A stretch of DNA of 64,000 bases, from contig NZ_JACIEU010000010.1 in assembly GCF_014197035.1 (NCBI RefSeq), positions 124,001 to 188,000 on the forward strand. Reading direction: 5' to 3'. This document shows, one piece after another, positions 19,822 to 52,570 of the stretch. The position numbers and the translations under genes were made by a program. The DNA comes from Sphingobium scionense. Lineage in GTDB: Bacteria > Pseudomonadota > Alphaproteobacteria > Sphingomonadales > Sphingomonadaceae. Position 1 is the stretch's first letter. Every line of letters begins with the position of its first letter. The notes beneath the pieces were generated by a model that made no database searches, was not told the DNA's origin, and was given only the letters and a program-made list of their open reading frames with translations.

Positions 19822-19843
19822 CCCCCAATACGGAGGCAAGATC

Positions 19844-21262: not shown

Positions 21263-21293
21263 CCGTCCACGCATAATTTCAAGGAGACCTGCC

Positions 21294-22232: not shown

Positions 22233-22279
22233 GCAGGGCTTGCTCACCCCCTTACCCTGACCCTGACCTTCGGCACACT

Positions 22280-22311
22280 GGGCCGCGTTCCATTCGGACG
22301 CGGCCCCTTTT
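22280..22311 (+). terminator. Rho-independent terminator after the dioxygenase gene
   Basis: GGGCCGCGT and ACGCGGCCC form a perfect 9-bp stem around a 9-nt loop, followed by CTTTT. It lies about 50 bp past the dioxygenase stop and 14 bp before the sulfatase start, suggesting the sulfatase is separately transcribed or reached only by read-through. Confidence 0.85.
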
Positions 22312-22324
22312 CACGGAAGACCCC

Positions 22325-23959: not shown

Positions 23960-24111
23960 CCCGCGCATGAGGGGGATGGCGCACCCATCCCCCTCTTCTT
24001 CATCGCATTTTCCCCTTGCCCCGGCGGCGATCCCATGCACAAAGCTTGCCAATTGCCGCGGGCGGACCCATGTCCGCCGCACCCCGATCTGGCGGCGCAA
24101 GGATTGAAGTG

Positions 24112-33880: not shown

Positions 33881-33911
33881 GGGCCGGTGTGAAAACACCG
33901 GCCCTATTTTT
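33881..33911 (+). terminator. Rho-independent terminator of glnK-amtB
   Basis: GGGCCGGTGT (33881-33890), GAAA loop, ACACCGGCCC (33895-33904), then TATTTTT. Stem of 10 perfect GC-rich base pairs. The T-run merges with a consensus DnaA box at 33910-33918. Confidence 0.92.
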
Positions 33912-33995
33912 ATCCACAGGGCAGGCAGCGGGTCGAGTTCAATGGGCCAGGTACGACCATTTGCAGACATGCTTCATCCAGCGCATGATAGGCTC

Positions 33996-37482: not shown

Positions 37483-38630
37483 CAGGCGGGTGGGTTCAAC
37501 AATGCGTGCATGGCGTCCCTTATGCGCACCGGCGGGCGCCCGCACAAGATGCGGATGCGATCGGCGATGGTCGATCGTCCGGCATAGAAGCGCTGGATCA
37601 GCCCCGGCCGCAACCGATAGAAGCGGGCAAAGATGCGCCAGCGCTGGGCCGGCACCGCAGCGCCGAAGAGCATCCGGCCAAGCAGCCGATAATAAAACCC
37701 CTGTTTCCAGTGCGCCGCAGCATAGGCCCGCGTCGCCGCTGGCACCCCCTTCAAGGGCTGCTCCACCAGCCAGGCCGCGAATCGTACCGCATCGGGCAGC
37801 GAATAGCCGGTCATCGGCTGGAACAGCCCGGCCTTCACCCCGGCCCGCGCGACCGGGTCATCGGCTGGCCAGTAACGGTCGAAATCGCCGCCATGGACCA
37901 CCGGCAGCACCCCGCTCTCGCTGTGGATAATTTCCTCCACCTGCCAGCCCTGCGCCTGCGCATAGGCCGCAATTCGTTCCGCGATTCCGGTCGCGTCCAG
38001 TTCCGGCCCGTCGCTATAATAGGTATCCTCGACAAAGATCGTCCAGGCGTCGCGCGGCAACAGATAGACGAAGCGATAGCCGTCGATCTGCTCGACCGTG
38101 GCATCCATGATCACCGGCCGCTCGACCCCGTGCGGCTGCGCCAGCCGCAGCGTCTGCCCGACGAATTTCTGCCAGCCACAGCGCAGCGCCGACAGGTCGC
38201 CCGCGCCCCGCGCATCGATCACCGCCCGCGCGGCGATTCGCCGCCCATCGGCCAGCCGCACCCGATCCGGCGCGACCTCGTCCACCGCCGCGCCGGTCAG
38301 CAGCCGATCGCCCAGCGCCGAACGGACATGCGCATCGAAACGGGGGGAGGCGATGCTGTTATAGGGCGTATCGAGCTGTCGCCCATAACCGGGAAAGCGC
38401 ACTTCATGCCCCTGCGACCAGCGGCGGCTGACCAGCGGATCGACCAGCCAGCGATCGCGCGTATCGACATCGCCATCGAAGAAGGACCAGATATGGTTGC
38501 CCCCCACATGATCGGCCTGCTCGATCAGCAATAGGCGCGTGCCCGGCCGCCGCTCGGCAAAGGCAAGCGCGATCAGCCCCCCGGCAAGGCCGCCGCCAAC
38601 AATTGCAAGATCACAGTCCAGATCAACCAC
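37482..38630 (-). CDS. crtY: Lycopene beta-cyclase
   Basis: 382 aa. N-terminal dinucleotide-binding motif AIVGGGLAGGL, then LLIEQADHVGGNHIWSFFD, both typical of bacterial CrtY. It cyclises lycopene to beta-carotene, the precursor of sphingomonad xanthophylls such as nostoxanthin; hydroxylase and ketolase genes are not in the window. It is first in the minus-strand operon crtY-crtI-LOG-crtB. A TGTGGATAA DnaA-box sequence lies inside at 37922-37930. Confidence 0.94.
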   Translation of the reverse strand: MVDLDCDLAIVGGGLAGGLIALAFAERRPGTRLLLIEQADHVGGNHIWSFFDGDVDTRDRWLVDPLVSRRWSQGHEVRFPGYGRQLDTPYNSIASPRFDAHVRSALGDRLLTGAAVDEVAPDRVRLADGRRIAARAVIDARGAGDLSALRCGWQKFVGQTLRLAQPHGVERPVIMDATVEQIDGYRFVYLLPRDAWTIFVEDTYYSDGPELDATGIAERIAAYAQAQGWQVEEIIHSESGVLPVVHGGDFDRYWPADDPVARAGVKAGLFQPMTGYSLPDAVRFAAWLVEQPLKGVPAATRAYAAAHWKQGFYYRLLGRMLFGAAVPAQRWRIFARFYRLRPGLIQRFYAGRSTIADRIRILCGRPPVRIRDAMHALLNPPA

Positions 38631-38691
38631 CCACCCCTGTTAGCGATGGCGGTAACGAAGGCAAAGCACGATGGTCGATAATGGCCTTGAC

Positions 38692-39219
38692 CTAACCCTG
38701 CCCGAACATCAGGCCCGAAGGCGGCGTTTCATGCGTCCACCGCTCTCGCTGGGTGACGACCTGCGCCACGGCCCGGTCCCAATAGGCGGGATTGTTGGCC
38801 AGCATCCTGATGTCGAAACTGTTCGCTCCACGGAACTCCAGCACCTCGACCCCCTGCTCGCCGGGGACATAGGTGTAGGGGACATTCGCGCCGACGAAGA
38901 AGCCGTCGCCCGCACCCAGTTCCTCCGTGCCGATGCGCAGCGATCCGGCCAGGATGAAATAGAGGCAGTCGACATCATGGCTATGGCGCGGCAGCGGAAA
39001 GCCGCTGCGGAACCAGGCATGGGTGAGGCTGAGGCCCGGCATGGCGAAGAGCAGCTTCACCCGCGTGCCTTCCAGCATGCCGGCCTCGACCGCGGCGATT
39101 GATCCTGCCATCTCGATCGGCGTCGGCGGCACCGTCGCCATCAGGCCGCTTTCCTCGAAATCGGTGGCGTCCTTCGCACGGAACAGGGCGAAGCGGGGCG
39201 CGGCTACAGGGTCGGTCAT
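38692..39219 (-). CDS. Cupin domain-containing protein
   Basis: 175 aa from ATG 39219, with GGAAGGAT upstream. The cupin core is PRHSHDVDCLYFILAG (metal-binding histidines) and PYTYVPGEQGVEVLEFRG. The role is unknown; metal-dependent dioxygenase/isomerase or ligand sensor are options. It is divergent from the EthD-like gene across a 185-bp spacer and sits at the edge of the catabolic island, so membership is plausible. Confidence 0.8.
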   Translation of the reverse strand: MTDPVAAPRFALFRAKDATDFEESGLMATVPPTPIEMAGSIAAVEAGMLEGTRVKLLFAMPGLSLTHAWFRSGFPLPRHSHDVDCLYFILAGSLRIGTEELGAGDGFFVGANVPYTYVPGEQGVEVLEFRGANSFDIRMLANNPAYWDRAVAQVVTQRERWTHETPPSGLMFGQG

Positions 39220-39404
39220 CACCCATCCTTCCGGCATGATTGCGGCGTCAGGATGCGGAGCGCTGCCGACAGGGTCAATTCGTGCCCGCTTCTCAATGCC
39301 CCGGCGATCATTGGCCGGCGGCTCTGGCATCCCCCGGGCATCCATGCTGGATTGCCGCCGCATAATGGGCCGGGACCAGCCGGCCGGGCAGCCGGGGACG
39401 AGGA

Positions 39405-40187
39405 ATGAGCCTGTATACCACCATCCATCTGCACAATGTCGCGGCCGGCCGGGCGGAGGATTATGCGCGCTGGTTCGACGGCGCGCATCAGCAGGATCTC
39501 GCCCGGTTGCGCGGCTTTCGTTCGGCCGATCGCTACGAGGTGACGCCGCAACAGATCATGCCCGACATTCCCCAGCCCTGGCGTTTCCTGTCGGTCTATG
39601 AATTCGATTATGCCGCGCCGGAGATCGACCTGCCCGCGCTCGCGCCCTTGCTGGCGCAGGCGCGCGACGCGGGGCTGATCGACGACAGCGACGAAAGCGA
39701 GCGCATTCACAGCTATGCGATGTATTCGGACTGGGTCGCCAGCCCCAATCACCGGGCCGACCAGCCCTTTTCCGGGGTCTCGATCATCCTCGCCAATTTT
39801 GTCGCCGGGCGGGAGGCGGAATATCATCATTGGTACGACACGGTCCATGGCCCCGAAGTGACGCGCGTGCCAGGCAAGGTGGCGATGAAGCGCGGCCGGC
39901 TGTCGCCGCTCCAGGTCGAACCGCGGCGCTATTGTCCCGGCAGCGACCTGGTCTTCTGCGCCCAGCAGACCGACGACCTGCTGTTCACGGTCAAGGATTT
40001 CAGCGCGCGCGCGCGCGGCGTCAGCCCCAGCGGCGTCGCCTTCCAACCGCGCTCCTCGGCGGGTTCCTTCGCCCGCACGGTCCATTATTTCGCCAGGGCC
40101 AGCGGCACCCGCTTCTGGCCTGGCGGCATCGCCTATGATGGCGACCTGTCCGTCTATCCGGCCGATTTCGCGCGGCCGGCGGGCTGA
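39405..40187 (+). CDS. Tandem dimeric alpha/beta-barrel (EthD/ABM-like) protein
   Basis: 260 aa. Two ferredoxin-like halves are visible: the first with YARWFDGAHQQDLARLRGF and a later FLSVYEFD, the second with YHHWYDTVHGPEVTRVPG. The W-(Y/F)-D-x-x-H pattern is repeated in both, as in EthD-type proteins. Internal duplication in one chain may mimic a dimer. Function unknown; similar proteins occur beside degradative P450 and SDR genes. ACGAGGA precedes ATG 39405. It opens the plus-strand part of the island. Confidence 0.75.
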   Translation: MSLYTTIHLHNVAAGRAEDYARWFDGAHQQDLARLRGFRSADRYEVTPQQIMPDIPQPWRFLSVYEFDYAAPEIDLPALAPLLAQARDAGLIDDSDESERIHSYAMYSDWVASPNHRADQPFSGVSIILANFVAGREAEYHHWYDTVHGPEVTRVPGKVAMKRGRLSPLQVEPRRYCPGSDLVFCAQQTDDLLFTVKDFSARARGVSPSGVAFQPRSSAGSFARTVHYFARASGTRFWPGGIAYDGDLSVYPADFARPAG

Positions 40188-40287
40188 ACCGGGGAACCAT
40201 CGCAAGCGCGATGCGGCATGGCCTTGCCGGGCCGAAGATCCCGTGCGCTATTAGCATGAAGTTTGAAAAGAACAGGTGGAGCGAGAG

Positions 40288-41025
40288 GTGAGCAAGGTCA
40301 TCGTCATTACCGGTGCGGGCGACGGGCTGGGACGCGCATTGGCGCGGCGGTTCGTGCGCGACGGCGAAACCGTCATCCTGCTGGGCCGCACCCTGGCGAA
40401 GGTCGAGGCGGTCGCGCAGGAACTGGGCGAACCCCATTTTGCCGTCGCATGCGATGTCGGGAACCCCGACTCTGTTCGCGCCGCCTTTGCCGCGATTGCA
40501 CAGCGCCACCCCAGGATCGACGTGCTGATCAACAATGCCGCGATCTACGAACCATTCACCCTGGCCGAGGTGCGCGACGAGCAGATCGCAGCATCGCTCG
40601 CTACCAATGTCGCAGGCCCGATCTATTGCGCGCGCGAGGCGCTGCCGCTGCTGCGCGGTGGCGGCCATATCATCAACGTCACCAGCGAATCCGTGCCGCT
40701 GAAAATGCCGATGCTGTGGCTCTATGCCGGCGGTAAGGCGGGCCTCGAACTGATGTCGGACATGTGGGCGCGCGAACTGGAGCCCGAGGGCGTGCGCGTC
40801 ACCGTGGTCCAGGCGGGCATGATGATGGACGAGACCAAGACCGGCAGCAGCTGGCCGATGGACGTGTCGATCCGCTTCGCCCAGGAAAATGCCAAGGTCG
40901 GCCTCAACCTGCGCGAGCGCGGCATCAGCCATTATAATTCGGTGACCGACGTGTTCCGCGCCGTGCTCGACATGCCGGCGGACCTCCACATCGGATCGGT
41001 CGCCCTGAGCGCGCGCAAGCGCTGA
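40288..41025 (+). CDS. SDR family oxidoreductase
   Basis: 245 aa from GTG 40288 with GGAG seven bases upstream; an in-frame GTG at 40276 has no ribosome site. TGAGDGLG is the cofactor glycine motif and NNAA the structural motif. The catalytic Ser is in VTSES and the Tyr/Lys pair in YAGGK. The N-terminal half favours NAD(P) alcohol dehydrogenases. It lies 64 bp before an aldehyde dehydrogenase, so sequential alcohol to aldehyde to acid oxidation is likely. Confidence 0.88.
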   Translation: MSKVIVITGAGDGLGRALARRFVRDGETVILLGRTLAKVEAVAQELGEPHFAVACDVGNPDSVRAAFAAIAQRHPRIDVLINNAAIYEPFTLAEVRDEQIAASLATNVAGPIYCAREALPLLRGGGHIINVTSESVPLKMPMLWLYAGGKAGLELMSDMWARELEPEGVRVTVVQAGMMMDETKTGSSWPMDVSIRFAQENAKVGLNLRERGISHYNSVTDVFRAVLDMPADLHIGSVALSARKR

Positions 41026-41034
41026 CCGGGCGAC

Positions 41035-41078
41035 TTATCCCCAACGTCGACAAAAGTTATCCACAGAAGTTATCCACA
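41035..41078 (+). promoter_or_regulatory. DnaA-box triplet upstream of the aldehyde dehydrogenase gene
   Basis: TTATCCCCA (41035-41043, one mismatch), then exact TTATCCACA at 41057-41065 and 41070-41078, the last two 13 bp apart in direct orientation. The last box ends 11 bp before the ATG, next to the ribosome site AGGAAGG. DnaA could bind here as replication-related titrator or as a transcription regulator. Confidence 0.7.
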
Positions 41079-41089
41079 GGAAGGCGATC

Positions 41090-42559
41090 ATGGCCACTCT
41101 TCCCGAAGCCAAGCTCTATATCGACGGCGTGCTGCGCGGTGCCGAAGGCGGCAAGACCTTTGACGTGATCGGCCCCTGGACCGGCGAACCGGTCGGCGTC
41201 GCCGCCGATGCCTCAGCCGCCGATGTCGAGGCCGCGATCGTCGCCGCCCGCCGCGCCTTTGACGAAACCGACTGGTCGACCAATGTCGACCTGCGCGTCG
41301 CGCTGGTGACGAAGCTGCGCGACCTGTTCCAGGCGAACAAGGAACGGCTGTCGGACCTCGCCCGGCATGAGGCCGGCGCCGCGCTGGGGGCTGTCGGCCG
41401 TGCCCATGTCGACATGGCGCTCGACGGCTGGGACGATTATCTCGCCGTCTTCCCCCAGCTCAAATGGGACAAGGATTATGGCGGCCGCACCGGCTATGGC
41501 TTTGAAAGCCTGCGCAAGGCGGTCTATGAACCGGTCGGCGTGGTCGCGGCGATCACCCCCTGGAACGTGCCGCTCTATGTGAATGTCGGCAAGGTGGTGG
41601 CCGCACTGCTGGCGGGCTGCACCGTGATCCTGAAGCCCGCGCCCAACACGCCGGGCATGGGCGCGATCTTCGGCGAACTGGCGGCGGAGGCGGGCTTCCC
41701 TGCCGGCGTCATCAACGTCGTGTTCGGCAGCGATCCGGCGCTGGCCGGCGAGATGCTGGTCACCGATCCGCGCGTCGATCTCATTTCCTTCACCGGCTCG
41801 ACCGGCGTCGGCAAGCGCATCATGGAACAGGGCGCCGCCACGCTGAAGCGCGTCTTCCTGGAACTGGGTGGCAAGTCGGCCAAGATCGTGCTCGACGATT
41901 CCGCCAATTTCGCGATGGACGTCGCCCAGACCATGCTGGTCTTCCATGCCGGCCAGGGCTGCGCCGTGCATTCGCGCCTGCTGGTGCCGCGCAGCCGCTA
42001 TGAGGAGGCGAAGGCGATCCTCAAGCACGCCTATGCCAGCTTCGGCGATAATTGGGGCGATTTCGACAATCCCCAGCACATCATGGGGCCGGTCATTTCG
42101 CAGCGGCAGCGTGACCGGGTGCTGTCCTATGTCGAAATCGGCCAGGCCGAGGGTGCGACCCTGCTGGCCGGTGGCAAGGCGCGGCCGGACAAGGGCGGTG
42201 GCTATTTCATCGAGCCGACCTGCTTCGCCGACGTCACCAACGACATGCGCATCGCCCAGGAAGAGATTTTCGGACCGGTGCTGGTGGTCATCCCGTTCGA
42301 GGATGATGCCGACGCGGTGCGCATCGCCAATGAAAGCAGCTATGGCCTGTCGGGCGGCGTCAGTTCGGGCAATCTTGACCGGGCGATCAATGTCGCCAAG
42401 CAGATTCGCAGCGGTTCGATCAGCGTCAATGGCGGCATGTGCATCGCCGGCGACTTGCCTTTCGGTGGCTACAAGGCCAGTGGTGTTGGCCGCGAATGGG
42501 GCCTCGAAGGGATCGAGGAGTTCCTGGAGACCAAGCTGATTGCCTGGCGCGCGGCCTGA
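41090..42559 (+). CDS. Aldehyde dehydrogenase family protein
   Basis: 489 aa. TPWNVP (residues 156-161), FTGSTGVGK, catalytic Glu258 in FLELGGKSA and nucleophile Cys291 in GQGCAVHS place it in the NAD(P)-dependent aldehyde dehydrogenase superfamily. EEIFGPV and the C-terminal PFGGYKASGVGREWG are conserved. It would oxidise the aldehyde made by the preceding SDR. Upstream sits the DnaA-box triplet, and TetR follows. Confidence 0.95.
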   Translation: MATLPEAKLYIDGVLRGAEGGKTFDVIGPWTGEPVGVAADASAADVEAAIVAARRAFDETDWSTNVDLRVALVTKLRDLFQANKERLSDLARHEAGAALGAVGRAHVDMALDGWDDYLAVFPQLKWDKDYGGRTGYGFESLRKAVYEPVGVVAAITPWNVPLYVNVGKVVAALLAGCTVILKPAPNTPGMGAIFGELAAEAGFPAGVINVVFGSDPALAGEMLVTDPRVDLISFTGSTGVGKRIMEQGAATLKRVFLELGGKSAKIVLDDSANFAMDVAQTMLVFHAGQGCAVHSRLLVPRSRYEEAKAILKHAYASFGDNWGDFDNPQHIMGPVISQRQRDRVLSYVEIGQAEGATLLAGGKARPDKGGGYFIEPTCFADVTNDMRIAQEEIFGPVLVVIPFEDDADAVRIANESSYGLSGGVSSGNLDRAINVAKQIRSGSISVNGGMCIAGDLPFGGYKASGVGREWGLEGIEEFLETKLIAWRAA

Positions 42560-42590
42560 ACCGCGCGACAGGGCATGGATAGGACGGGTT

Positions 42591-43325
42591 TTGACGGCAA
42601 AGGCATCGATCGCGGCGGAAGGGCCGTCGGAACCCAAGGGCCGGGGACGGACCACCAAGGCGCTGAGCCATAATCTCAATGGCCAGCGGCTGGGTCGCAA
42701 GGGGCGCGATACACGTGAGCGCATCCTGGCGGCGACCAATGAACTGCTGGCCGGGCCGGTCGATGTCGAGCTGTCGCTAAGCGCCGTCGCGCGCCAGGCC
42801 TCGCTCGGCATGACGTCGCTCTATAATTATTTCTCAGACCTCACCGAATTGCTGCTCGCCGTGCTGGAGCCGGTAATGGCGACGGCGGAGGCCGACTATG
42901 TCGGCCTGCTGCGGACCCGATGGAGCGAGGAGGAACTGGGCGAGAGGGCGCTGGCCTTCGTCACCGCCTATCATGGCTTCTGGGTCAAGCATTCGCGCCT
43001 GCTCCATTTGCGCAACAATATGGCCGATCGTCAGAATGAACGGATGATGCTGCATCGCGTCCATGCCGCCCAGCCGGTGATGCGGCTGCTGGTCGACCAG
43101 ATGGATGGCGGCACCGAGGCGGCCGGATCGCCGGTGTTCAGCATGGGCACCGCGCTGATGACCGGGCTGGAGCGTGTCGTCACCGTCACCACCGACATGG
43201 CGCTGCAGAATATCCTCCATTCCCCGCATCCGCTGGCGCGCACCCATTTGCTGCGGGCCGAAGCGCGGCTGATGGAACTGGGCATCCGCGACTATCGCGC
43301 GATGCTCCGCGACGCGCGCGCCTGA
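42591..43325 (+). CDS. TetR/AcrR family transcriptional regulator
   Basis: 244 aa from TTG 42591, which has AGGACGGG in front; no ATG gives a better N-terminus. The first 40 residues are a basic extension (KGRGRTTKAL). The DNA-binding domain is DTRERILAATNELL...LSLSAVARQASLGMTSLYNYF, of TetR type. The ligand-binding domain ends SPHPLARTHLLRAEARL. It is the only clear regulator in the island and probably represses catabolic genes until the substrate or CoA-ester appears. Confidence 0.88.
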   Translation: MTAKASIAAEGPSEPKGRGRTTKALSHNLNGQRLGRKGRDTRERILAATNELLAGPVDVELSLSAVARQASLGMTSLYNYFSDLTELLLAVLEPVMATAEADYVGLLRTRWSEEELGERALAFVTAYHGFWVKHSRLLHLRNNMADRQNERMMLHRVHAAQPVMRLLVDQMDGGTEAAGSPVFSMGTALMTGLERVVTVTTDMALQNILHSPHPLARTHLLRAEARLMELGIRDYRAMLRDARA

Positions 43326-43342
43326 GACCGGCGCGGGTCGAC

Positions 43343-43427
43343 TTATCCACAGGCTTATCGACAGAAGTTATCCACAGCTTTTCCCACACCCCTCTGTGGG
43401 AAAAGCTGTGGATAAGTCTGTGGACAG
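43343..43427. promoter_or_regulatory. Cluster of five DnaA-type boxes with a perfect 21-bp inverted repeat
   Basis: Exact TTATCCACA at 43343-43351 and 43368-43376, TTATCGACA at 43355-43363, TGTGGATAA at 43407-43415 (opposite strand) and a degenerate TGTGGACAG at 43419-43427. Arms at 43368-43388 and 43395-43415 are perfect 21-bp inverted copies around a 6-bp spacer, with a box at the outer end of each arm. It sits in a convergent intergenic region just past the TetR gene. Confidence 0.8.
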
Positions 43428-43453
43428 ATGAAGGCGCTTAGCCTGTGTTGGAA

Positions 43454-43574
43454 AATCCGGCCGTAGCCGGATTGCGCCGCACCAGCCCACACCCCCACCC
43501 GGCCGCCCATCAGGGTACCATGTCTGGGCGGCCGGGTGGGGGTGTGGGCTGGTGCCGATGCGCCGGAGGCGCAT
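43454..43574. repeat. Hairpin array including a perfect 31-bp inverted repeat
   Basis: Three hairpins follow the DnaA boxes. AATCCGGC-CGTA-GCCGGATT at 43454-43473 is perfect. Arms at 43479-43509 and 43525-43555 are perfect 31-bp inverted copies around a 15-bp loop containing GGTACC, with CCCACACCCCCACCCGG in the left arm. ATGCGCC-GGA-GGCGCAT at 43558-43574 is followed by TTCTCC. No T-run follows the large hairpin. They may end converging transcripts, block fork passage or be a dispersed repeat. Confidence 0.8.
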
Positions 43575-43590
43575 TTCTCCAAACGGACTT

Positions 43591-44397
43591 TTATTCCTTC
43601 TTGCCGCCAATGCCCTTCAGATAGCGTTCCATCCCCTCCAGATAGGCGGGGTTCAGCATCAGCGCGCTATTGGCCATGCGCTCGACATGGCGGCCCATGG
43701 ACGGACCGACTTCGGCGGCCAGTTCGATCGCGATCTTGGCGGCGCCCATCTGCTCGCCATTCTGCTTGGTGAGGTGGCGACAGAAGGCGAGGGCAGCGTC
43801 CTCGAAACCCTCGTCCGGCATCACGTCATGCACCAGGCCCATGATGAGTGCGCGGTCGGCATCGGCCTTCTGGTTGCCCATGATCAGCCAGCGCGCCCAG
43901 TGCGGGCCACAGATGCGGGTCAGGCGGCTGACCCCGTTGGAGGCCGGCAGCACGCCGAACAGTCCTTCGGGGAAGGAGAAGGCCGCCGACTTGGCCGCCA
44001 GGCGGAAATCGCAGGACAGCGCCATTTCCAGCCCGCCGCCGACGCAGGTGGCGTGGATGGCGCAGACGATCGGCTTTTCCACATGCTCCATCTCGTCATA
44101 GATGCGCTGCATGCCGTTGAGCTGGAGCCGGTGATTTTCGCGGATGCCGCTGGGCGTGCGGGGATATTCCCTGGGCGACCCGCCGCTTTTCATGTCCGCG
44201 CCCGAACAGAAATAGCGGCCGGTCGACCGGATCAGCATCACCTTGAGGTCGGGCGTGTCGCGGAAGCGGATCAGCGCCGCCTCGAACAGCGCCATCGTTT
44301 CGGCCGACAGGGCATTGAGCTTGTCCGGCCGGTTCAGCGTGGCAATCAATATGCCATCCTGAACTTCGGTCAGCAGATGGGGAGCGTCGTCCGACAT
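43591..44397 (-). CDS. Enoyl-CoA hydratase/isomerase family protein
   Basis: 268 aa. LNRPDKLNALS, the oxyanion-hole segment YFCSGADMK and ATCVGGGLEMALSCD, and FPEGLFGVLPASNGVSRL are family landmarks. It probably hydrates or isomerises an enoyl-CoA from the fused acyl-CoA dehydrogenase, whose stop is 10 bp upstream of this start. Distal gene of the minus-strand operon. Confidence 0.92.
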   Translation of the reverse strand: MSDDAPHLLTEVQDGILIATLNRPDKLNALSAETMALFEAALIRFRDTPDLKVMLIRSTGRYFCSGADMKSGGSPREYPRTPSGIRENHRLQLNGMQRIYDEMEHVEKPIVCAIHATCVGGGLEMALSCDFRLAAKSAAFSFPEGLFGVLPASNGVSRLTRICGPHWARWLIMGNQKADADRALIMGLVHDVMPDEGFEDAALAFCRHLTKQNGEQMGAAKIAIELAAEVGPSMGRHVERMANSALMLNPAYLEGMERYLKGIGGKKE

Positions 44398-44407
44398 GCG
44401 ATCTTCC

Positions 44408-46618
44408 TCAGGCGCGGGTGCGCGGCAGGCCCAGGCCCTTTTCCGCGATCATGCTGCGATGGACCTCGCTGGTGCCGCCATAGATGGTTGCGCCCTGGGC
44501 GTGGCGATAGAACATGTTGATCTCCTCCGCCGGCCCCTTGCGCTTGGAGAGCGAGGCCGGGGCGGTGAGGTCGAGCAGGTCGCGCGCGTCGGTCAGGAAT
44601 TTCTCCGAACTGAACATCTTGGCCATCGGGCCATAGGCCAGGTTCGGCTTGTTCTCCATGCTCACCCACTGCGCGCGGAAGGCGATGAGTTCCGACGCCC
44701 ACAGATTGGCGGCGGTGCGGGCGAGCCGCGCCTGAGCGCCGCCATCCTCGATCAGCGGCCTGCCCCTGTGGATAACTTCCCGGCACAACGCCTCGCCGGC
44801 GTGCAGCATCTTGCGCTGATATTTGGCGAAGCCGCCGCCATGTTCCAGTTCCAGGCTGGCGCTCATGGTGCGCACGCCGCCGTCGATCGTGCCCAGCCGC
44901 CAGCTGTCGGGGATGCGCACGCCATCATAGAAGGTGATGTTGGTGCGCTCGTCCTGGAAGGTGTGGACCGGTTGCACCGTCACGCCATCGGCCTTCAGCG
45001 GCACGATGAACATGGTTAGGCCCTTGTGCTTGGCTACGTCCGGGTTGGTGCGGCAGAGCATCAGCACATAGCTGGAAAGATTGGCGCCCGATGTGAACAT
45101 CTTGGTGCCGTCGATCCGCCAGCTGCCATCCGCCTCCTGCGTCGCGCGGCATTGCGCGGCGAACACGTCGGAACCCGAGCCGGGTTCGGAATAGCCAAGC
45201 GAGCAGATCACCTCGCCGCGCATGATTTCCGGCAGCACCGCCTGCTTCAATTCCTCGGTGCCGAAGCGGTGGATGATGAGCGACACCATCTGCGTCACAT
45301 TGGCCGCGGGGTTGTTATAGCCCTGCTCCTCGAACGCATCCATCGCCGCCGTCTTTTCATAGGCGGACAGGCCCCGGCCACCCACATCCTTGGGCAGGCC
45401 GAGATAGAGGAGATTCTGTGCCGCCAGCTTGCGGTTGAGTGCGGGGTTATAGCCCTCCCAGCTATAGTGGAAGGTCGCCCGCATCTCCGGCGTCACATTG
45501 GCGGCGAAGAAGGCGTTGATCTCGTCCTTGATCGCCTGCGCCGCCTCGCCCAGGTCGAAATCGACCGGCATCGGCCCGGCATCGGGCAGCGATGCGGCCT
45601 CATCGGCGTAGAGCCGGCGCCCGGCCTCGTCGAGCCAGCGCTGCGGATCGCCGCCGATCAGCGGCCAGGCCTTGGCCCGCAGATTATAGAGGAAGATGTC
45701 ATATTCGGTGGTGAGGCCATAGCCGCCGAAGGTGTGGAGCGATTGCGCCACCGCCTTGGCCGCGCTCTGCGCATTCCACCAGGCCGCGATCGAGATCGCG
45801 CCTCCAGCTTCGGGCGCGCCGTCGGCCAGGTCGCGGATCGCCTTCCAAACCAGGAATTTGCCGCCGTCAATCTCGCAGAGAATGTCGGCCAGCGGATGGG
45901 AAATGGCCTGGAACTGGCCGATATACTGGTCGAACTGCTTGCGCTCGCAGGCATAGGCAGCGGCAAGCTTCAGCGCCTCGCGACCGATACCGGCCAGACC
46001 GGCGGCGATCAGCAGCTTCCATTCCTCGATCCCGGCGGCGAAGGTCGCCAGCGCCTCGGCTCCCGATGCCAGCACCGTGCGGGAATGCACCGACAGGTCG
46101 ATCTCCGCGATCGGGGTGGAGGCGAGATTGTCCTCCGCCTTGCGCGCGTCTGCCGGCACGGTGACGAGGATGATGTCGTCGCCTGACCGGGCCAGCACCG
46201 CTTCGGCCACCAGACCGCCGCCAACCCACTGGACGGGCGTGCCCGCCACATCCTCGAAGGCGAAACCTACAACCGCATCGCCCGCCAGCACCCGGCCGAG
46301 CAGATCAGCGGTGGTTTCACCGCCCAGTTGCGCCAGCAAGCGCGCCGTCACCAGCACTTCGGCCAGCGGCCCTGATGCCAGCGTCCGGCCTGCTTCCTCC
46401 ATCAGGATGGTCGCGTCGAAGAGGCCGAGGCCAAGGCCACCCGCCTCTTCGGGTACGCGGATCGACAGCGCCCCCAGCTCCGCCAGCCCCTGCCACAGGG
46501 CCGGGTCGAATCCGGTCGGTTCGGCCGCGCGCACGCGCGCCATGCTGCTATGCTCGTCCAGGAAGCGCGCGAACATGTCGCGCATCATGTCCTGATCGTC
46601 GGTCAGGTCGAAATTCAT
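44408..46618 (-). CDS. Fused double acyl-CoA dehydrogenase
   Basis: 736 aa, about twice a normal subunit. The first domain runs from NFDLTDDQDMM to about residue 370 and ends with the C-terminal ACAD landmarks LHTFGGYGLTTEYD and WPLIGGDPQRW. The second begins near ALNRKLAAQNLLYLGLP and includes GYSEPGSGSD, DGTKMFTSGAN and a terminal YGGTSEVHRSMIAEKGLG. Two-chain alpha2beta2 FadE pairs act on steroid or cyclic CoA esters; here the pair is a single polypeptide. ATG 46618 is chosen because family similarity starts there. A DnaA-box sequence lies at 44767-44775. Confidence 0.9.
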   Translation of the reverse strand: MNFDLTDDQDMMRDMFARFLDEHSSMARVRAAEPTGFDPALWQGLAELGALSIRVPEEAGGLGLGLFDATILMEEAGRTLASGPLAEVLVTARLLAQLGGETTADLLGRVLAGDAVVGFAFEDVAGTPVQWVGGGLVAEAVLARSGDDIILVTVPADARKAEDNLASTPIAEIDLSVHSRTVLASGAEALATFAAGIEEWKLLIAAGLAGIGREALKLAAAYACERKQFDQYIGQFQAISHPLADILCEIDGGKFLVWKAIRDLADGAPEAGGAISIAAWWNAQSAAKAVAQSLHTFGGYGLTTEYDIFLYNLRAKAWPLIGGDPQRWLDEAGRRLYADEAASLPDAGPMPVDFDLGEAAQAIKDEINAFFAANVTPEMRATFHYSWEGYNPALNRKLAAQNLLYLGLPKDVGGRGLSAYEKTAAMDAFEEQGYNNPAANVTQMVSLIIHRFGTEELKQAVLPEIMRGEVICSLGYSEPGSGSDVFAAQCRATQEADGSWRIDGTKMFTSGANLSSYVLMLCRTNPDVAKHKGLTMFIVPLKADGVTVQPVHTFQDERTNITFYDGVRIPDSWRLGTIDGGVRTMSASLELEHGGGFAKYQRKMLHAGEALCREVIHRGRPLIEDGGAQARLARTAANLWASELIAFRAQWVSMENKPNLAYGPMAKMFSSEKFLTDARDLLDLTAPASLSKRKGPAEEINMFYRHAQGATIYGGTSEVHRSMIAEKGLGLPRTRA

Positions 46619-46623
46619 GGGGT

Positions 46624-47457
46624 TCAGGCCTCGGCGGGCGCCGAACGCCGCATCATGACGCTCAGGTCCACCTGGCCGGTGGCGACGCCGCCCATGAAGC
46701 CGCCATCGACCGGGAAGACCACGCCGTTGACGATGGAGGCGAGGTCGCTGTTCAGCAGCACGATGCCGCTCGCCTGCTCGGCCGGCGTGGAATAGCGGCC
46801 CATCGGCTCGGCGGCGGCGGCGACAACATCCTTGCCGGACGCGGCCTCGAACGTCGCCATCATCGGCGTCTGGGTGGGCGAAGGCAGGGTGCAATTGATG
46901 CGGATGCCCTTCTTGATGAGATGCGCGCCCATATACTGGGTCCAGACGATCACATTCTCCTTGGAGAAGCTGTAGCCTTCCTTGACCACATCATCGAGAT
47001 GCGCCTCGCACCAGGCGACGGCGGCATCATAGCCCTTGGTGGTGACGAATTCCATGTTGGTCGGGATGCGACGGCTCCAACCCAGCCCTCCGGTGGAGGC
47101 GATGCTGGCGATCGCGCCGCCCGGCCCCATCAGCGGCAAAACCTGTTCGGTCAGGTGGCGCAGGCCGATGAAGTTCACCTTCATGACGTCGAGCGGCGGG
47201 AAGGACTGCGGCAGGCCGGCGCAGTTGAACAGCGCATCGACCTTGCCGCCGATGCCGGCCACCGCCGCCTCGATCGAGGCCGGATCGCGCAGGTCGACAT
47301 TGGTGAAGGAGGCGAGCGGCAGGCTGCTGTCCTTGAAGTCCAGGCCATGGACCTCGGCGCCCAGCTCCAGCAGCAGCTTGGCGGTCGCCTCCCCCATGCC
47401 GGAGAAGCAGCCGCTCACGATCACGCGCTTGCCCTTATAGCCCAAAATGTCGCTCAT
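46624..47457 (-). CDS. SDR family oxidoreductase (3-alpha-HSD/coniferyl-alcohol dehydrogenase-like)
   Basis: 277 aa from ATG 47457 behind CCAGGAGAG. IVSGCFSGMGEAT is the cofactor motif and FNCAG the structural one. The catalytic residues are Ser in SIASTGG and Tyr/Lys in GYSFSKEN. The GLDFK acidic residue after the second strand favours NAD. The style resembles 3-alpha-hydroxysteroid and coniferyl-alcohol dehydrogenases. Six bases separate its stop from the fused dehydrogenase start. Confidence 0.87.
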   Translation of the reverse strand: MSDILGYKGKRVIVSGCFSGMGEATAKLLLELGAEVHGLDFKDSSLPLASFTNVDLRDPASIEAAVAGIGGKVDALFNCAGLPQSFPPLDVMKVNFIGLRHLTEQVLPLMGPGGAIASIASTGGLGWSRRIPTNMEFVTTKGYDAAVAWCEAHLDDVVKEGYSFSKENVIVWTQYMGAHLIKKGIRINCTLPSPTQTPMMATFEAASGKDVVAAAAEPMGRYSTPAEQASGIVLLNSDLASIVNGVVFPVDGGFMGGVATGQVDLSVMMRRSAPAEA

Positions 47458-47479
47458 CTCGCTCTCCTGGAATCTCTGA

Positions 47480-47710
47480 TTATGCCTTGGCCTTGGGCGG
47501 CCAGCTGATGCTGCCATCATCTTCTTCGACGAAGATGATGCGTTCGGGGCAGGCGCGCGCGCCGCGCTTGGCGGTCTGCTGTTCACCGTCTGCCACGTCG
47601 AAACCCCCGGTCGCGATATAGCCGTCCTCGTCCAGCGGATACATGTCCTCGGACACGGCGGCGCAGCGGGCATTGCCCACGCAGCCTGATTTTTCGATGC
47701 GGATCTTCAT
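47480..47710 (-). CDS. [3Fe-4S] ferredoxin (P450-associated type)
   Basis: 76 aa from ATG 47710 with GAGAGGG in front. Cysteines follow the single-cluster pattern: CVGNARC (spacing five) and, after the loop, CPE. This Cx5C...CP type transfers electrons to bacterial P450s. The adjacent divergent P450 is its likely partner. No ferredoxin reductase gene is seen in the window, so the reductase must be encoded elsewhere. Confidence 0.88.
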   Translation of the reverse strand: MKIRIEKSGCVGNARCAAVSEDMYPLDEDGYIATGGFDVADGEQQTAKRGARACPERIIFVEEDDGSISWPPKAKA

Positions 47711-47946
47711 CGGCCCTCTCCGGCTATTCTGACCTTCCTTAGAAAGGAGATTGCCCAGCCGATCAACGTGGCCTGCGGCACAATCGCCATCGCGATACGG
47801 CAGCGGGGACGCGGATCGTCGGTGCGTTATCTGGCGGCGGCGCCCCCTGCCCCTTTGCCTTTGCCGGGCCGCCGGGCAAAACGGGTCCGACAAGAAGGGA
47901 CGCGCCCTGCGCGCGCTCGCCCACGCAGGGACAGACGGAGAGAATT

Positions 47947-49200
47947 ATGGCCCACGCCACCTTGAGCGCCGCCGCGCCGCAGCCGGCCCATGTGCCCGAC
48001 GCGCTCGTCTATGATTTCGATATCCACGCCGATCCCGGCCTGCTCGCCGATCCGCATGCCCGCATCCTCGACATGCTCAAAAATGCCCCGCCGGTCTTCT
48101 GGACGCCGCGCAATGGCGGCGGCTGGGTCGCGCTGACCCACGCGGCCAATTATGAGGCGTCGCGCGATACCGAGACCTATTCCAGCGAATTCGTGCCGGC
48201 CGACAAGATGAAGGCGCTGCTCGCCTCATTGCCGCCGGGCGCACCGCATATCCCGCAGCCGATCCCGATCACGCTCGACCCGCCCGAGCACACCAAATAT
48301 CGCCAGCCGCTGCAGAAGGTCTTCTCGCCCAAGACGATCGCGGCCCTGAAGGACAGCATCCGCGAACTGGCGGGCGAACTGATCGACGCGATCAAGGCCG
48401 ATGGCCAGTGCGAGTTCATGAGCACGGTGGCCGAGCCGCTGCCGGTGCAGGTCTTCCTCAAGATGCTGGGCCTGCCGCTCGACCGGCTGCCGGAATATCG
48501 CCAGATTGTGAAGGAGCATATGGAAGCGATCGATACCGATCGCGAAGGATCGATGCGCCGCCTGCAGCGCATTGCCGCGGCGATGCGCGACACCGTGCTC
48601 GACCGGAAGGACAATCCGAAGGATGACATCATCTCCATGCTGTGGAAGCTGGAGGTGGACGGCCAGCCGAGCACGCTTGCCGACATGGAAAATTACGGCG
48701 TGCTGCTGTTCATCGCGGGCCTCGACACGGTGATGAACGGCATGGGTCTCGCCATGCGCGGCCTCGCGCTCGACCTGCCGTTGCAGGACAAGCTGCGTGC
48801 CGAGCCGAAACTGGTGGCGGAAGCCGCCGAGGAAATGCTGCGTCGCTTCACCTTCACCGTGCCGATGCGGGTCATCAAGAAGCCGGCGGAGCTGGCCGGG
48901 GCCAAGCTGATGCCGGGCGACATGCTCAAGCTGTTCCTGCCCGCCGCCGATCTCGACGCGAAGGAGTTCCCGCAGCCAGACAGCTATGATCTCGATCGCG
49001 AGAACAATGTTCACATTGCCTTTGGCGTTGGTCCGCATCGCTGCCTCGGCTCGCACCTCGCCCGCATCGAGCTGCAGGTTCTCTATGAGGAGATGCTGGC
49101 GCGCATGCCGCAGTTCCGGCTCGATCCTGCCAAGCCCACAGTCTTCCACGGCGGCCATGTGATCGGCATAGAGACGCTCAATCTGGTCTGGGACGCCTGA
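47947..49200 (+). CDS. Cytochrome P450 (CYP101/CYP111-like)
   Basis: 417 aa soluble P450. I-helix AGLDT at 257-261 in FIAGLDTVMN, ExxR at 296-299, and heme loop FGVGPHRCLG with thiolate Cys366. DPPEHTKYRQ near residue 111 is the usual B/C-helix block. The I-helix and C-terminal TLNLVWDA resemble P450cam-like terpenoid hydroxylases, so a cyclic terpenoid-type substrate is plausible. A 236-bp divergent promoter region precedes it, with TCCTT-AGA-AAGGA at 47736-47748 as a possible operator. Confidence 0.93.
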   Translation: MAHATLSAAAPQPAHVPDALVYDFDIHADPGLLADPHARILDMLKNAPPVFWTPRNGGGWVALTHAANYEASRDTETYSSEFVPADKMKALLASLPPGAPHIPQPIPITLDPPEHTKYRQPLQKVFSPKTIAALKDSIRELAGELIDAIKADGQCEFMSTVAEPLPVQVFLKMLGLPLDRLPEYRQIVKEHMEAIDTDREGSMRRLQRIAAAMRDTVLDRKDNPKDDIISMLWKLEVDGQPSTLADMENYGVLLFIAGLDTVMNGMGLAMRGLALDLPLQDKLRAEPKLVAEAAEEMLRRFTFTVPMRVIKKPAELAGAKLMPGDMLKLFLPAADLDAKEFPQPDSYDLDRENNVHIAFGVGPHRCLGSHLARIELQVLYEEMLARMPQFRLDPAKPTVFHGGHVIGIETLNLVWDA

Positions 49201-49604
49201 TGGTCTGGCAACGTTCGCGCCCGCGCCTCGACCGGGAAAATCGTGCCTTCTGGACCGGCGGGGCGGAGGGGAAGCTCAACATCACCCGCTGCGACGACTG
49301 CGGCCAGTTCACCCATCCCCCGCGCGAAATCTGCCGCCATTGCCAGTCGGAACATGTCGGCCCGCATGCGGTCGCCGGCACCGGCGCGGTCGATACCTAT
49401 ACGATCAACTATCAGGCCTGGGCCAAGGATATGGAGGTGCCCTTCGTCATCGCCCGTGTCCGGCTCGACGATGTGCCGGGGGTCTATCTCACCACCAATA
49501 TCGTCAATTGCCCGGTCGATGCCGTCGACATGGATGACCGCGTCCGCGTCACCTTCGAGGAGCAGGACGGCATCTGGTTCCCCCTGTTCGAGAAGGTCGC
49601 ATGA
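49200..49604 (+). CDS. DUF35 (zinc ribbon plus OB-fold) protein
   Basis: 134 aa. The zinc ribbon is CDDCGQFTHPPREICRHC (two CxxC pairs), then an OB-fold with TYTINYQAW. DUF35 partners bind thiolase-like proteins; with Ltp2 they form a retro-aldolase in steroid side-chain breakdown. Its ATG overlaps the P450 stop, and the thiolase-like gene overlaps its own stop. Confidence 0.9.
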   Translation: MVWQRSRPRLDRENRAFWTGGAEGKLNITRCDDCGQFTHPPREICRHCQSEHVGPHAVAGTGAVDTYTINYQAWAKDMEVPFVIARVRLDDVPGVYLTTNIVNCPVDAVDMDDRVRVTFEEQDGIWFPLFEKVA

Positions 49605-50767
49605 GCATGGCGCGCGAAGCCTATATTACCGGCATCGGCATGTCGGAGGTCGGCGTGCGGCTGACCCGGTCGCCGCTGGGCCTGACGCTGGACGCCGTGC
49701 GCGAGGCGATTGCCGACGCGGGCCTGACGCTCGACCAGATTGACGGCGTCGCCACCTATCCCGGCAAGATGTCGACCTTCCTCGGCTTCTCGCCGGTCAG
49801 TGCCGACGATGTGATCGAGATATTGGGCCTCAACACGCGCTGGCATATCGGCGCGGCGGAGGCGACGGCGCAGCTGGGCGCGATCGCCGAGGCGGCGATG
49901 GCGGTGAAGGCCGGCCTTGCCCGCCATGTCCTGTGTTTCCGCACCGTCTATGAAGCGGCGGCGCTGGCCCGCCCCGAGGAATTCCCGCCGATGGAACGGC
50001 GCAAGGATGTGTCGGGCAATTCGCAATGGGTCTCGCCCTTCGGCGCCTTCTCGGCCGCCAACTGGACCGCGCAATTCGCGATGCGCCACATGAAGCGCTA
50101 TGGCCTGACCCGCGAACAGCTCGCCCAGGTGGCGCTGAACGATCATGCCAATGCGGCGCGCAACCCGCGCGCGATCGTCAAGAAGCCGCTGACCATGGAC
50201 GACTATATGGCGGCGCGGATGATCAGTTCGCCCTTCTGCCTCTATGATTGCGACCGCTTCACCGATGCATCGACCGTGCTGATCGTGTCGGCGGGCGATG
50301 CGCTGGATGAGGTGAAGACGACACCGGTCCGCATCGCCGCCAGCGCCGGATCAGTCGAGCGCTACAGCTGGGATCAGGCCGAATGGGCGAGCGCCTATCC
50401 GACCGGGCGCGACCTGTGGAAGAACACGGACTATAGCGCCAAGGATGTCGATACCGTCCAATTCTATGACGGCTTCGCCTTCCAGCCGATCACCTGGCTC
50501 GAAGGGCTGGGCTTCTGCGATGTCGGCGAGGGCGGCCAGTTCCTCGAAGGCGGCAAGCGCATCGCGCTCGACGGCGAACTGCCGATGAACACCGGCGGCG
50601 GCCAGCTTGGCTGGGGGCGTCTGCACGGCTTCGGCTTTGCCTATGAATCGGTGGTGCAGTTGCGCGGCGAAGGCGGTGCGCGCCAGATCGCTGGCGACCC
50701 GAAGGTGGCCGTGGCGACATCGGGTGGCGGCCCGATGGCGGCGGCGCTGCTGCTGGCCAGGGACTGA
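49601..50767 (+). CDS. Thiolase-fold lipid-transfer protein (Ltp2-like, possible aldolase)
   Basis: 388 aa, thiolase superfamily. The N-terminus ITGIGMSEVG and later GGGQLGWGRLHG are typical of SCP-x/Ltp proteins. No convincing thiolase Cys is seen at the usual nucleophile position, while VQFYDGFAF holds a Tyr that matches an Ltp2 catalytic tyrosine region. This favours a retro-aldol CoA-ester lyase with the preceding DUF35 partner over true thiolysis. Ends 5 bp before the DUF2889 gene. Confidence 0.85.
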   Translation: MSMAREAYITGIGMSEVGVRLTRSPLGLTLDAVREAIADAGLTLDQIDGVATYPGKMSTFLGFSPVSADDVIEILGLNTRWHIGAAEATAQLGAIAEAAMAVKAGLARHVLCFRTVYEAAALARPEEFPPMERRKDVSGNSQWVSPFGAFSAANWTAQFAMRHMKRYGLTREQLAQVALNDHANAARNPRAIVKKPLTMDDYMAARMISSPFCLYDCDRFTDASTVLIVSAGDALDEVKTTPVRIAASAGSVERYSWDQAEWASAYPTGRDLWKNTDYSAKDVDTVQFYDGFAFQPITWLEGLGFCDVGEGGQFLEGGKRIALDGELPMNTGGGQLGWGRLHGFGFAYESVVQLRGEGGARQIAGDPKVAVATSGGGPMAAALLLARD

Positions 50768-50772
50768 CACGC

Positions 50773-51522
50773 ATGGACAGCGGGATGCTCGACCTGCTGC
50801 CCGGCTTTCGCCGTCGCTTCCTGGTGACGCCGCTGCCCGGCCGGGTGACGGCCGCGGTCGAGGATGATTATCATTCGATGGCGGTCATCCTTCACCATGA
50901 CGGCGCGCGCATCACCGACGTCGAATCGATCATGGAGCGGGTGCCCTGGACCACTTGTCCGGGCGCGCCCGCCGTGCTTCAGGCGACCTTCACCGGGGTC
51001 GCGCTCGCCAATGTTGCGGCGCGCGGCGAGAAGAAGGCGAACTGCACTCATTTGCATGATCTGGCCGTGCTGGCCGCGGCCCATGCCGACGACGAGGCGC
51101 CGACCCGCTACGAGATTCTCGCCTGCGATCCGGTCGAGGAGGATCTGGCCGTGGCTGAGATTCGCCGCGACGGCATGCCGCTGCTGCAATGGGCGCATCG
51201 CCGCCATGTCATGGTCGCGCCGGCCGAGATGGCCGGCCAGTCGCTGATGAAGCTGCGGCCGTGGATCGATGCGCTGGACCAGCCAGAGCGGGAGGCCGCC
51301 CGGCTGCTGCAATGGGGCACGATCCTCGCCAATGGCCGGCTCATTCCGATGGAGCGGCAATCGACCGCGACCCGCGTCCCGCCCAACTGCTTCACCTTCC
51401 AGCCGGAAAATGCGGTCAAGGCGCAGCGTGTCGGCCGGGTGGTCGACTTTACCGCCGAACCTTTGGTGCCGCTCGACCATTTTGACGGCGCCGCCTATGA
51501 CCGGCCGCGCGACGCAGGATAG
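50773..51522 (+). CDS. DUF2889 domain-containing protein
   Basis: 249 aa. The DUF2889 landmarks are present: RRRFLVTPLPGRVTAAVEDDYHSM, ITDVESIMERVPWTTCPGA, and CTHLHDLAVLAAAHA with a Cys-x-x-Leu-His pattern that could bind metal or ligand. The C-terminal half has an alpha/beta region ending NCFTFQPENAVKAQR. Function not established, but it is embedded in the catabolic operon. Overlapping signals suggest co-translation with its neighbours. Confidence 0.85.
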   Translation: MDSGMLDLLPGFRRRFLVTPLPGRVTAAVEDDYHSMAVILHHDGARITDVESIMERVPWTTCPGAPAVLQATFTGVALANVAARGEKKANCTHLHDLAVLAAAHADDEAPTRYEILACDPVEEDLAVAEIRRDGMPLLQWAHRRHVMVAPAEMAGQSLMKLRPWIDALDQPEREAARLLQWGTILANGRLIPMERQSTATRVPPNCFTFQPENAVKAQRVGRVVDFTAEPLVPLDHFDGAAYDRPRDAG

Positions 51523-51535
51523 AGGAAACGGGACG

Positions 51536-52504
51536 ATGGACGAGGCGCGGAAACTGGTAGCTCCCGAATTGCGCGCGGCGCTCGACCTCTTCCCGCCGCT
51601 CGACCTGAGCGATCAGAATATCGCCGCCTTCCGCCAGCCCTTTGCCACCCGCCCGGCCGAGCCCATGCCCGAAGCGCTGGCCGCCGTGCAGCGCGAAGAA
51701 GTCTTCCTGCCCGGCGCGCCCGGATCGCCCGATGTGCGCTGCCTGCTCTATCGCCCGACGGAGACCGTTGGCGACGCGCTGCGGCCGGCCTATCTCCATA
51801 TTCATGGCGGCGGCTTCGTGCTGGGCATGGCCGACATGAGCGACCTGTCCAATCGGGCCTGGGTGGCGCAACTGGGCTGTGTCGTCCTGTCGGTCGATTA
51901 TCGGCTGGCGCCCGAGACGCCGTTTCCCGGTGCGCGCGACGATTGCCATGTCGCGCTCGCCTGGCTGCATGACCAGGCCGAGGCGCTGGGCATCGACCGC
52001 AGCCGTATCGCGATCGGCGGCGAGAGCGCGGGCGGCGGCCATGCCGTGGCGCTGGCGATCCATGCCCGCGACCAGGGCACCTATCCGATCTGCTTCATGC
52101 TGCTCGATGCGCCGATGCTCGACGATCGCACCGGCAGCAGCGCGCCGCTCCACCCCGTCACTGGCCGGTTCGTCTGGACGCCGGTGCAGAATCGCTATGG
52201 CTGGGGGGCACTGCTCGGGCAGGAAGCCGGGACCGACCATGTCCCGACCGACGCCGTGCCGGCCCGCTGCCCCGACCTGTCCGGCCTGCCGCCTGCCTTC
52301 ATCAGCGTCGGCGCGCTCGACTTGTTTCTGGAGGAGGATATCGACTTCGCCCGCCGGCTGATGGCGCTGGGCATCGCGGTCGAACTCCATGTCACGCCCG
52401 GCGCCTATCATGGCTTCGGCCTTGCCGGCCCCGATACGCCGCAGATGCAGGCGCTCCAGACGATGCGCCTTGCCGCCCTCCGCCGCGCCCTGGCCGCGCA
52501 ATAA
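51536..52504 (+). CDS. Alpha/beta hydrolase (hormone-sensitive lipase family)
   Basis: 322 aa. HIHGGGFVLG is the oxyanion-hole motif, the nucleophile is in GGESAGGG, the acid in ALDLFLEEDIDF, and the base in GAYHGFG. DYRLAPETPFPGA is typical of HSL-type esterases. It probably hydrolyses an ester or lactone of the catabolised compound. AGAGGAAACGG precedes ATG 51536. Last gene of the plus-strand catabolic run. Confidence 0.92.
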   Translation: MDEARKLVAPELRAALDLFPPLDLSDQNIAAFRQPFATRPAEPMPEALAAVQREEVFLPGAPGSPDVRCLLYRPTETVGDALRPAYLHIHGGGFVLGMADMSDLSNRAWVAQLGCVVLSVDYRLAPETPFPGARDDCHVALAWLHDQAEALGIDRSRIAIGGESAGGGHAVALAIHARDQGTYPICFMLLDAPMLDDRTGSSAPLHPVTGRFVWTPVQNRYGWGALLGQEAGTDHVPTDAVPARCPDLSGLPPAFISVGALDLFLEEDIDFARRLMALGIAVELHVTPGAYHGFGLAGPDTPQMQALQTMRLAALRRALAAQ

Positions 52505-52570
52505 GCCCCGGCCTCTACGCACCGCCAGCCCCCTCCCCAACGATGAGAGCGTCTTGTCCAACTCATTCAC

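Follow-up and report, generated by a model that had tools for sequence, protein, structure and literature searches.

A conserved DnaA-box cluster in Sphingobium scionense as a probable node of an origin-centred titration array

The titration of DnaA as a timer of replication has been argued over for decades. At datA, an IHF site between the boxes is essential and the hydrolysis of DnaA-bound ATP is stimulated; DARS, with a core of three DnaA boxes, releases ADP from DnaA. In E. coli, datA, DARS1 and DARS2 are described as short stretches with several boxes, whose relative distance from oriC is conserved (PMC4585315, PMC5295017). Experimental support for titration was formerly lacking, according to Olivi et al. 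(2025, PMC12371093), and E. coli data are now offered there, titration being argued from single-molecule tracking. The same authors describe an origin-proximal region of high DnaA-box density in E. coli and Salmonella, which exceeds permuted-motif controls and is taken to titrate DnaA; E. coli genomes have about 900 degenerate motifs each, which peak close to oriC in most strains and favour the lagging strand. In B. subtilis, the deletion of all six oriC-proximal DnaA-box clusters advances initiation (Okumura et al. 2012, as cited in one passage of PMC5295017), and hence free DnaA seems to matter there; another passage of this review plays such clusters down.

We examined a window of 64,000 nucleotides from Sphingobium scionense (genome G000), in which three exact and two imperfect DnaA boxes form a cluster at 43343-43427, in the gap that separates two convergent genes (Table 1). 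As in the case of the E. coli and Salmonella region, the Sphingobium boxes accumulate around oriC. Unlike in E. coli, the array uses one exact word, present about 45 times, shows no strand bias (in G050) and is restricted to one branch of one genus of Alphaproteobacteria. Like B. subtilis, Sphingobium has several box clusters outside oriC, but, in contrast to the six B. subtilis clusters, these are accompanied by many lone, often intragenic boxes. The cluster is also, like datA and DARS, a short stretch with several DnaA boxes; unlike in datA, no IHF-like site was found in it within one mismatch of the consensus, and it belongs to a dispersed set with many lone sites inside genes; the comparison with the DARS core covered the number of exact boxes, which is three here. 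In our best reading, the array would resemble the titration arrays argued for in E. coli and B. subtilis but would have evolved newly within one genus; the datA and DARS readings are weaker than titration. Among the literature matches listed, in a search whose scope excluded preprints and most subscription papers, no title concerned DnaA-box arrays in Sphingobium.

The cluster is probably a DnaA titration site, forming a dense node of an array of exact boxes centred on the origin. Forks leaving oriC would reach and copy this array soon after the round of replication begins, and the high-affinity sites near the origin would thereby double early; the doubled sites would bind free DnaA, the level of DnaA at oriC would fall, and a second start would be discouraged until enough new DnaA had been made. 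DnaA would be expected to bind these boxes in the cell and its free pool to be limited in this way, although 45 sites may be few beside the DnaA copy number.

Table 1. Boxes, repeat arms and genes in the window, with the second dense box group (positions are those of the window unless a contig or locus is named).
Feature	Position	Strand	Remarks
Exact DnaA box in sigma-54 (rpoN) gene	25568..25576	+	orthologous exact box in G021, G050
Exact DnaA box, intergenic	33910..33918	+	exact in G021; TTATCCACC in G050
Exact DnaA box in lycopene cyclase (crtY-like) gene	37922..37930	-	exact in G021, G050
13.9-kb block bearing the cluster	38667..52561		syntenic in four relatives; inside carotenoid region in G000
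Exact DnaA box, intergenic, upstream of aldehyde dehydrogenase gene	41057..41065	+	exact in 1/4 relatives (G050)
Exact DnaA box, ends 12 bp before aldehyde dehydrogenase ATG (41090)	41070..41078	+	exact in 4/4 relatives
Gene upstream of cluster, TetR-like by eye	42540..43325	+	no Pfam family at E<=0.001
Exact DnaA box 1, TTATCCACA	43343..43351	+	exact in 4/4 relatives
Weak box, TTATCGACA	43355..43363	+	identical in G021, G016, G029; TTATCAACG in G050
Exact DnaA box 2, TTATCCACA	43368..43376	+	exact in 4/4 relatives
Left arm of perfect 21-nt inverted repeat	43368..43388		inner pairing fails at >=1 position in 4/4 relatives
Right arm of perfect 21-nt inverted repeat	43395..43415		6 nt between arms
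Exact DnaA box 3, TGTGGATAA	43407..43415	-	exact in 4/4 relatives
Weak box, TGTGGACAG	43419..43427	-	TGTGG alone common to all five genomes
Enoyl-CoA hydratase gene, convergent with TetR-like gene	43591..44397	-	PF00378
Exact DnaA box in acyl-CoA dehydrogenase gene	44767..44775	-	exact in 4/4 relatives
GH115 node	L050:10648-10958 (G000:C27:40648-40958)		four boxes all exact in G021, G050

The layout described in an earlier note on this DNA, with three boxes in direct and then two in opposite orientation, was confirmed, two of the five having mismatches, as were a perfect 21-bp inverted repeat within the cluster and all nine positions listed for TTATCCACA in the window. The earlier note expected this word to be rare in DNA of 64% GC, and a mean of 0.10 copies was obtained by dinucleotide-preserving shuffling, none of 100 shuffles reaching nine. 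By its own terms, an equal density of the 9-mer throughout the genome would refute its reading; no such equality was found, and G000 has 45 copies in 5.96 Mb (102 contigs) compared with 22 of the reversed word, and the window, which makes up 1.1% of the genome, holds nine of the 45. The identification of the 9-mers as DnaA boxes is thus borne out by the sequence, the words being non-random, clustered and conserved.

Both the cluster and the excess of boxes belong to the same few genomes. A DNA search with the cluster (query 43310-43475) found it in five of 94 genomes of the genus, namely G000 and its relatives G016, G021, G029 and G050, and the exact word occurs 45, 46, 54, 48 and 44 times in these, respectively, and 5-24 times (median 11) in the other 89; this count includes incomplete genomes, with completeness of 90% or more and contamination of 5% or less in 83 of the 94. 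The same five genomes therefore have both the cluster and 44-54 exact boxes. The synteny of the locus, raised as a check in the earlier note, holds in the four relatives, where the block at 38.67-52.56 kb is syntenic and the three exact boxes are kept. In an alignment of the five genomes, these three boxes, which lie within 73 bp, are invariant, and the two weak boxes are less conserved; across the 13.9-kb block, the boxes at 41070, 43343, 43368, 43407 and 44767 are exact in every relative (20/20).

A protein search with the TetR-like gene found it in 17 of 81 genus genomes, and no TTWTNCACA was present at the 12 such loci outside the five genomes (about 3.7 kb each). A DNA search of plasmid records gave 26 records, none of which covers 80% of 42540-44400; the best, from Sphingobium sp. 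V4, has 81% identity over 77% and lacks TTWTNCACA throughout the 4,464 bases read there. A wider contig search gave seven more distant loci, at 70-79% identity.

The expansion is limited to one of the eight words of the consensus, and the other seven are not expanded as a set. The full consensus TTWTNCACA occurs 88, 84, 100, 96 and 92 times in G000, G050, G021, G016 and G029, and 67, 63, 32, 34 and 33 times in five other genomes (G068, G069, G082, G092 and G079). With the exact word subtracted, the seven sister words number 43, 40, 46, 50 and 44 in the former, and 52, 50, 23, 28 and 26 in the latter.

Another dense group, of four exact boxes, lies at C15:63585-63693 in G000, between hemE and a ppsR-type kinase/pyrophosphorylase gene, beyond which come maf-like, aroE, coaE and dnaQ genes; an AT-rich stretch (25 A/T in 30) stands beside them. 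The position of hemE next to a ppsR-type gene is what we take to be that of the alphaproteobacterial oriC, as in Caulobacter, and we infer that this box group is oriC. The four boxes recur with the same spacings in G050, G021, G029 and G016. The cluster lies 165 kb from this presumed oriC in G050 (measured across the end of the contig, on the assumption that the chromosome is circular), 166 kb in G029, 168 kb in G016 and 246 kb in G021; its description as far from any origin gene is right locally but fails for the four relatives at this larger scale. A second origin at the cluster itself was ruled out, as there are no origin genes there and no comparably AT-rich stretch (at most 20 A/T in 30 bp near the cluster, compared with 25 at oriC).

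The distribution around oriC was mapped in two of the five box-rich genomes, G050 (one contig of 4,506,188 bases, taken as circular) and G021 (the largest contig; its small contigs, which hold two exact boxes and two reversed words, were left out). Of the 40 exact boxes that G050 has outside oriC, 35 are at most 0.8 Mb away from it (14.2 expected), and of the 48 in G021, 43 are at most 0.9 Mb away (17.0 expected), these limits having been chosen after the positions were seen. A limit-free test in which box groups are counted once gives KS p = 1e-6 for G050 and 1.6e-8 for G021. The seven sister words are flat around oriC in G050 (15/40 within 0.8 Mb, 14.2 expected, KS p 0.76), and the exact word differs from them (Fisher p 6.5e-6). 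The reversed word, the sole permuted composition control, is mildly biased towards the origin, with 9/13 within 0.8 Mb in G050 (4.6 expected, KS p 0.04) and 10/14 within 0.9 Mb in G021 (5.0 expected), and some of the gradient may therefore be due to base composition. Still, in the 1.6 Mb around oriC in G050 there are 35 exact copies and 9 reversed ones, a density about four times as high. The exact boxes in G050 have no leading or lagging preference (21 v 19). A second dense node, with four exact boxes in 311 bp, lies inside a GH115 glycoside hydrolase gene, 120 kb from oriC in G021 and 159 kb in G050, on the arm opposite the cluster.

We then considered whether the boxes are retained beyond what the alignments alone would give. 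The 45 boxes with 400-bp flanks were aligned to G050 and G021; orthologous regions were sought separately for unmatched boxes, and lost boxes were thus counted, those without alignment being left out (3/45 in G050 and 1/45 in G021). In G050, 33 of the 42 alignable boxes are exact, where the other 9-mers in these alignments predict 20.4 (P 2e-5); in G021 the figure is 40 of 44, with 26.4 expected, a value not reached in any of 200,000 simulations. The excess in G050 holds without oriC (29/38, 18.3 expected, P 1.7e-4) and is weaker when one box is taken per locus (19/28, 12.6 expected, P 0.009); beyond 0.8 Mb, 3/6 are exact (2.2 expected).

A dispersed repeat carrying the box was ruled out by the weak preferences outside the 9-mer at 44 G050 sites, where G follows in 33/44, C or G precedes in 36/44 and A stands two before in 22/44. 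Outgroups were queried for 13 of the 45 boxes, and nine aligned, four of these being oriC boxes, some of which are exact in outgroups too. For the acyl-CoA dehydrogenase box, the outgroup loci L183 and L185 read GGGAGATACGCCACAAGGGCA and the window reads GGGAAGTTATCCACAGGGGCA, several box bases being different; for the aroE box, G068 reads CGCTAATCCATAATT and G000 reads CACTTATCCACAATT; and at the hemE box, the outgroups differ at several box bases. These comparisons support a gain of the three boxes by base substitution, and most of the remaining boxes were presumably gained separately in the same way. The outgroup alignments of boxes 41057 and 41070 have many gaps. In all four relatives, an exact box lies at 41035, 22 bp before 41057, where the window has TTATCCCCA (the alignment being gapped in three of them). 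Different genomes thus keep different members of a three-box group at 41035-41078, upstream of the aldehyde dehydrogenase gene, and the pattern at 41035 and 41057 is a sign of box turnover with retention.

DnaA was also compared across the genus. One dnaA was found in each of the 14 genomes searched (at 1,001.5 kb in G050, a location elsewhere than the cluster, which rules out the cluster as the dnaA promoter), and an exact box stands at one of the 14 dnaA loci read, in a genome outside the lineage. In domain IV, three positions that hold L, A and R in 31/31 other congeners read carry I, S and K in the box-rich five, and a fourth, which is I or V in those 31, is T; the stretch read has four more lineage-specific residues at other sites. 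The 31 comparison proteins are 24 of the best-scoring other loci plus seven more, from 89 genomes, with L266 (one of 37 loci) left out. The I-S pair aligns with the L-A directly before a lysine in the E. coli domain IV structure (1j1v), a position that we take to be L413-A414-K415, with the lysine as a DNA contact. B. subtilis DnaA has L-S there, and S is thus tolerated elsewhere. Against nine other genomes, 25 columns are lineage-specific, 17 before residue 251 and eight after residue 413; since such residues also occur outside the DNA-binding domain, general divergence may account for some of the changes.

A causal link between the DnaA changes and the gain of boxes would be in keeping with these observations. 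More tentatively than the titration role of the cluster itself, we propose as a real possibility that one Sphingobium branch has rebuilt its replication control, by changing the DNA-binding domain of DnaA and by separately gaining, through base substitution, some 35 high-affinity boxes that lie mostly in genes and no more than about 0.8 Mb from oriC; these would form a new titration array, with the cluster and the GH115 node as its densest points. As the five genomes share ancestry, the box count, the cluster and the DnaA changes may be a single phylogenetic event. A genus with one array-rich branch and box-poor sisters would make titration testable by comparison and by few deletions, tests that are harder with the hundreds of motifs of E. 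coli. If the DnaA change is linked, box affinity and box number could be studied as a coevolving pair, and, if control was indeed rebuilt, the branch would serve as a natural experiment in the evolution of initiator titration.

Other explanations of the cluster account for parts of this evidence. The earlier note read it as a new DnaA-binding regulatory locus, and this stands insofar as the boxes are DnaA boxes by sequence; a stand-alone locus of the datA or DARS type is not supported, since the cluster is one part of a large box set centred on oriC and no IHF-like site was found in it. A locus arranging DnaA for ATP hydrolysis (datA) or ADP exchange (DARS), rather than a mere sink, would suit several boxes in a short intergenic stretch, three one way and two the other and some 12-13 bp apart, and the distance from oriC in the four relatives fits an early-copied site. 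We nevertheless think it unlikely, because no IHF-like site lies in the cluster within one mismatch of the IHF consensus (from which that of Sphingobium may differ; the window has nine such matches, 8.7 being expected by chance, the nearest at 34,342, 9 kb off), because the two weak boxes needed to complete the array are less conserved, and because a catalytic complex leaves the many lone boxes unexplained. It is quite unlikely that the cluster is a hairpin ending the two genes that converge on it, a two-way terminator acting as RNA or DNA with the boxes as a by-product. As RNA, all five versions of the 21-nt repeat do form stable folds (-25.4 to -35.5 kcal/mol, z -5.6 to -10.6), and the cluster may for this reason have a minor hairpin role. 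However, the stem is perfect in G000 only: there is at least one inner mismatch in each of G021, G016 and G029 and several in G050, these pairs being lost without compensating changes while the 9-mer boxes at the ends stay exact. The palindrome was thus ruled out as a conserved unit, and the inverted repeat, proposed earlier as part of the design of the locus, is not upheld as such. In addition, no U-tract terminator was found in 43200-43700 and no Rfam family in 42500-44500, the exact boxes inside genes elsewhere are left unexplained, and the neighbouring 31-bp repeat (43479-43555) would be a longer hairpin, though one that is missing in G029 and G050.

A role of DnaA as a transcription regulator of the flanking fatty-acid and aldehyde genes could draw on the box just before the aldehyde dehydrogenase start, conserved in all relatives (Table 1). 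The cluster itself lies between 3′ ends, with no sigma-70-like promoter found in 43200-43700, and 32 of the 45 G000 boxes fall in reading frames (according to a rough gene finder that puts two or more oriC boxes in the wrong place), which makes such a role very unlikely. Dispersed sites away from the terminus are also the pattern of Noc and SlmA, and the words could merely resemble DnaA boxes while serving another protein that marks the origin half, such as a segregation or nucleoid-occlusion factor. This has little chance of being right, since the four boxes at the hemE/ppsR origin itself consist of this word, which matches the DnaA consensus perfectly, and since the DNA-binding domain of DnaA has changed in the same lineage. 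Equally improbable, and already disfavoured, is a pattern without function, made by base composition and shared ancestry: it would account for the lean of the reversed word towards the origin in G050 and G021, but the counts are about twice those of the richest congener and four to five times the median, a single one of eight consensus words is affected, and conservation exceeds that of matched 9-mers. Titration by an origin-centred array is the reading that we prefer over these.

The density of boxes in the window has a further, local component. In G021 and G050, the carotenoid-gene region that surrounds the 13.9-kb block in G000 is found across oriC from the block: window positions 8.9-38.7 and 52.6-64 kb (gapped) correspond to 553-595 kb of G050, and 27.1-38.7 and 52.6-64 kb (gapped) to 284-369 kb of G021, in both cases far from the place of the block. 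Because the block is inserted there in G000, the nine boxes join two chromosome regions, and the box density of the window is partly due to this rearrangement; G000 being a draft, the position of the block may be an assembly error. The junctions are at 38667 and 52561, and at the latter G021 and G050 have an exact DnaA box that is degenerate in G000. Near 40-46 kb, the GC skew goes from about -0.1 to about zero without staying positive afterwards, which coincides with the moved block. A strong negative GC skew, down to -0.15, extends over about 10 kb at 14000-24000.

The 31-bp inverted repeat adjoining the cluster is perfect, with 15 nt between its arms. Stretches resembling it occur on plasmid records of Sphingomonas sanguinis and Sphingopyxis, and these, together with its absence from the same locus in G029 and G050, make it look like a REP-type dispersed element. 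Elsewhere in G050, two exact boxes start 10 bp apart (L125, G050:C1:1893208-1893226), a pair ruled out as the dnaA promoter by the location of dnaA elsewhere; pairs with this spacing also occur in at least nine other congeners, and in G068 one lies near a cupin DUF985 gene.
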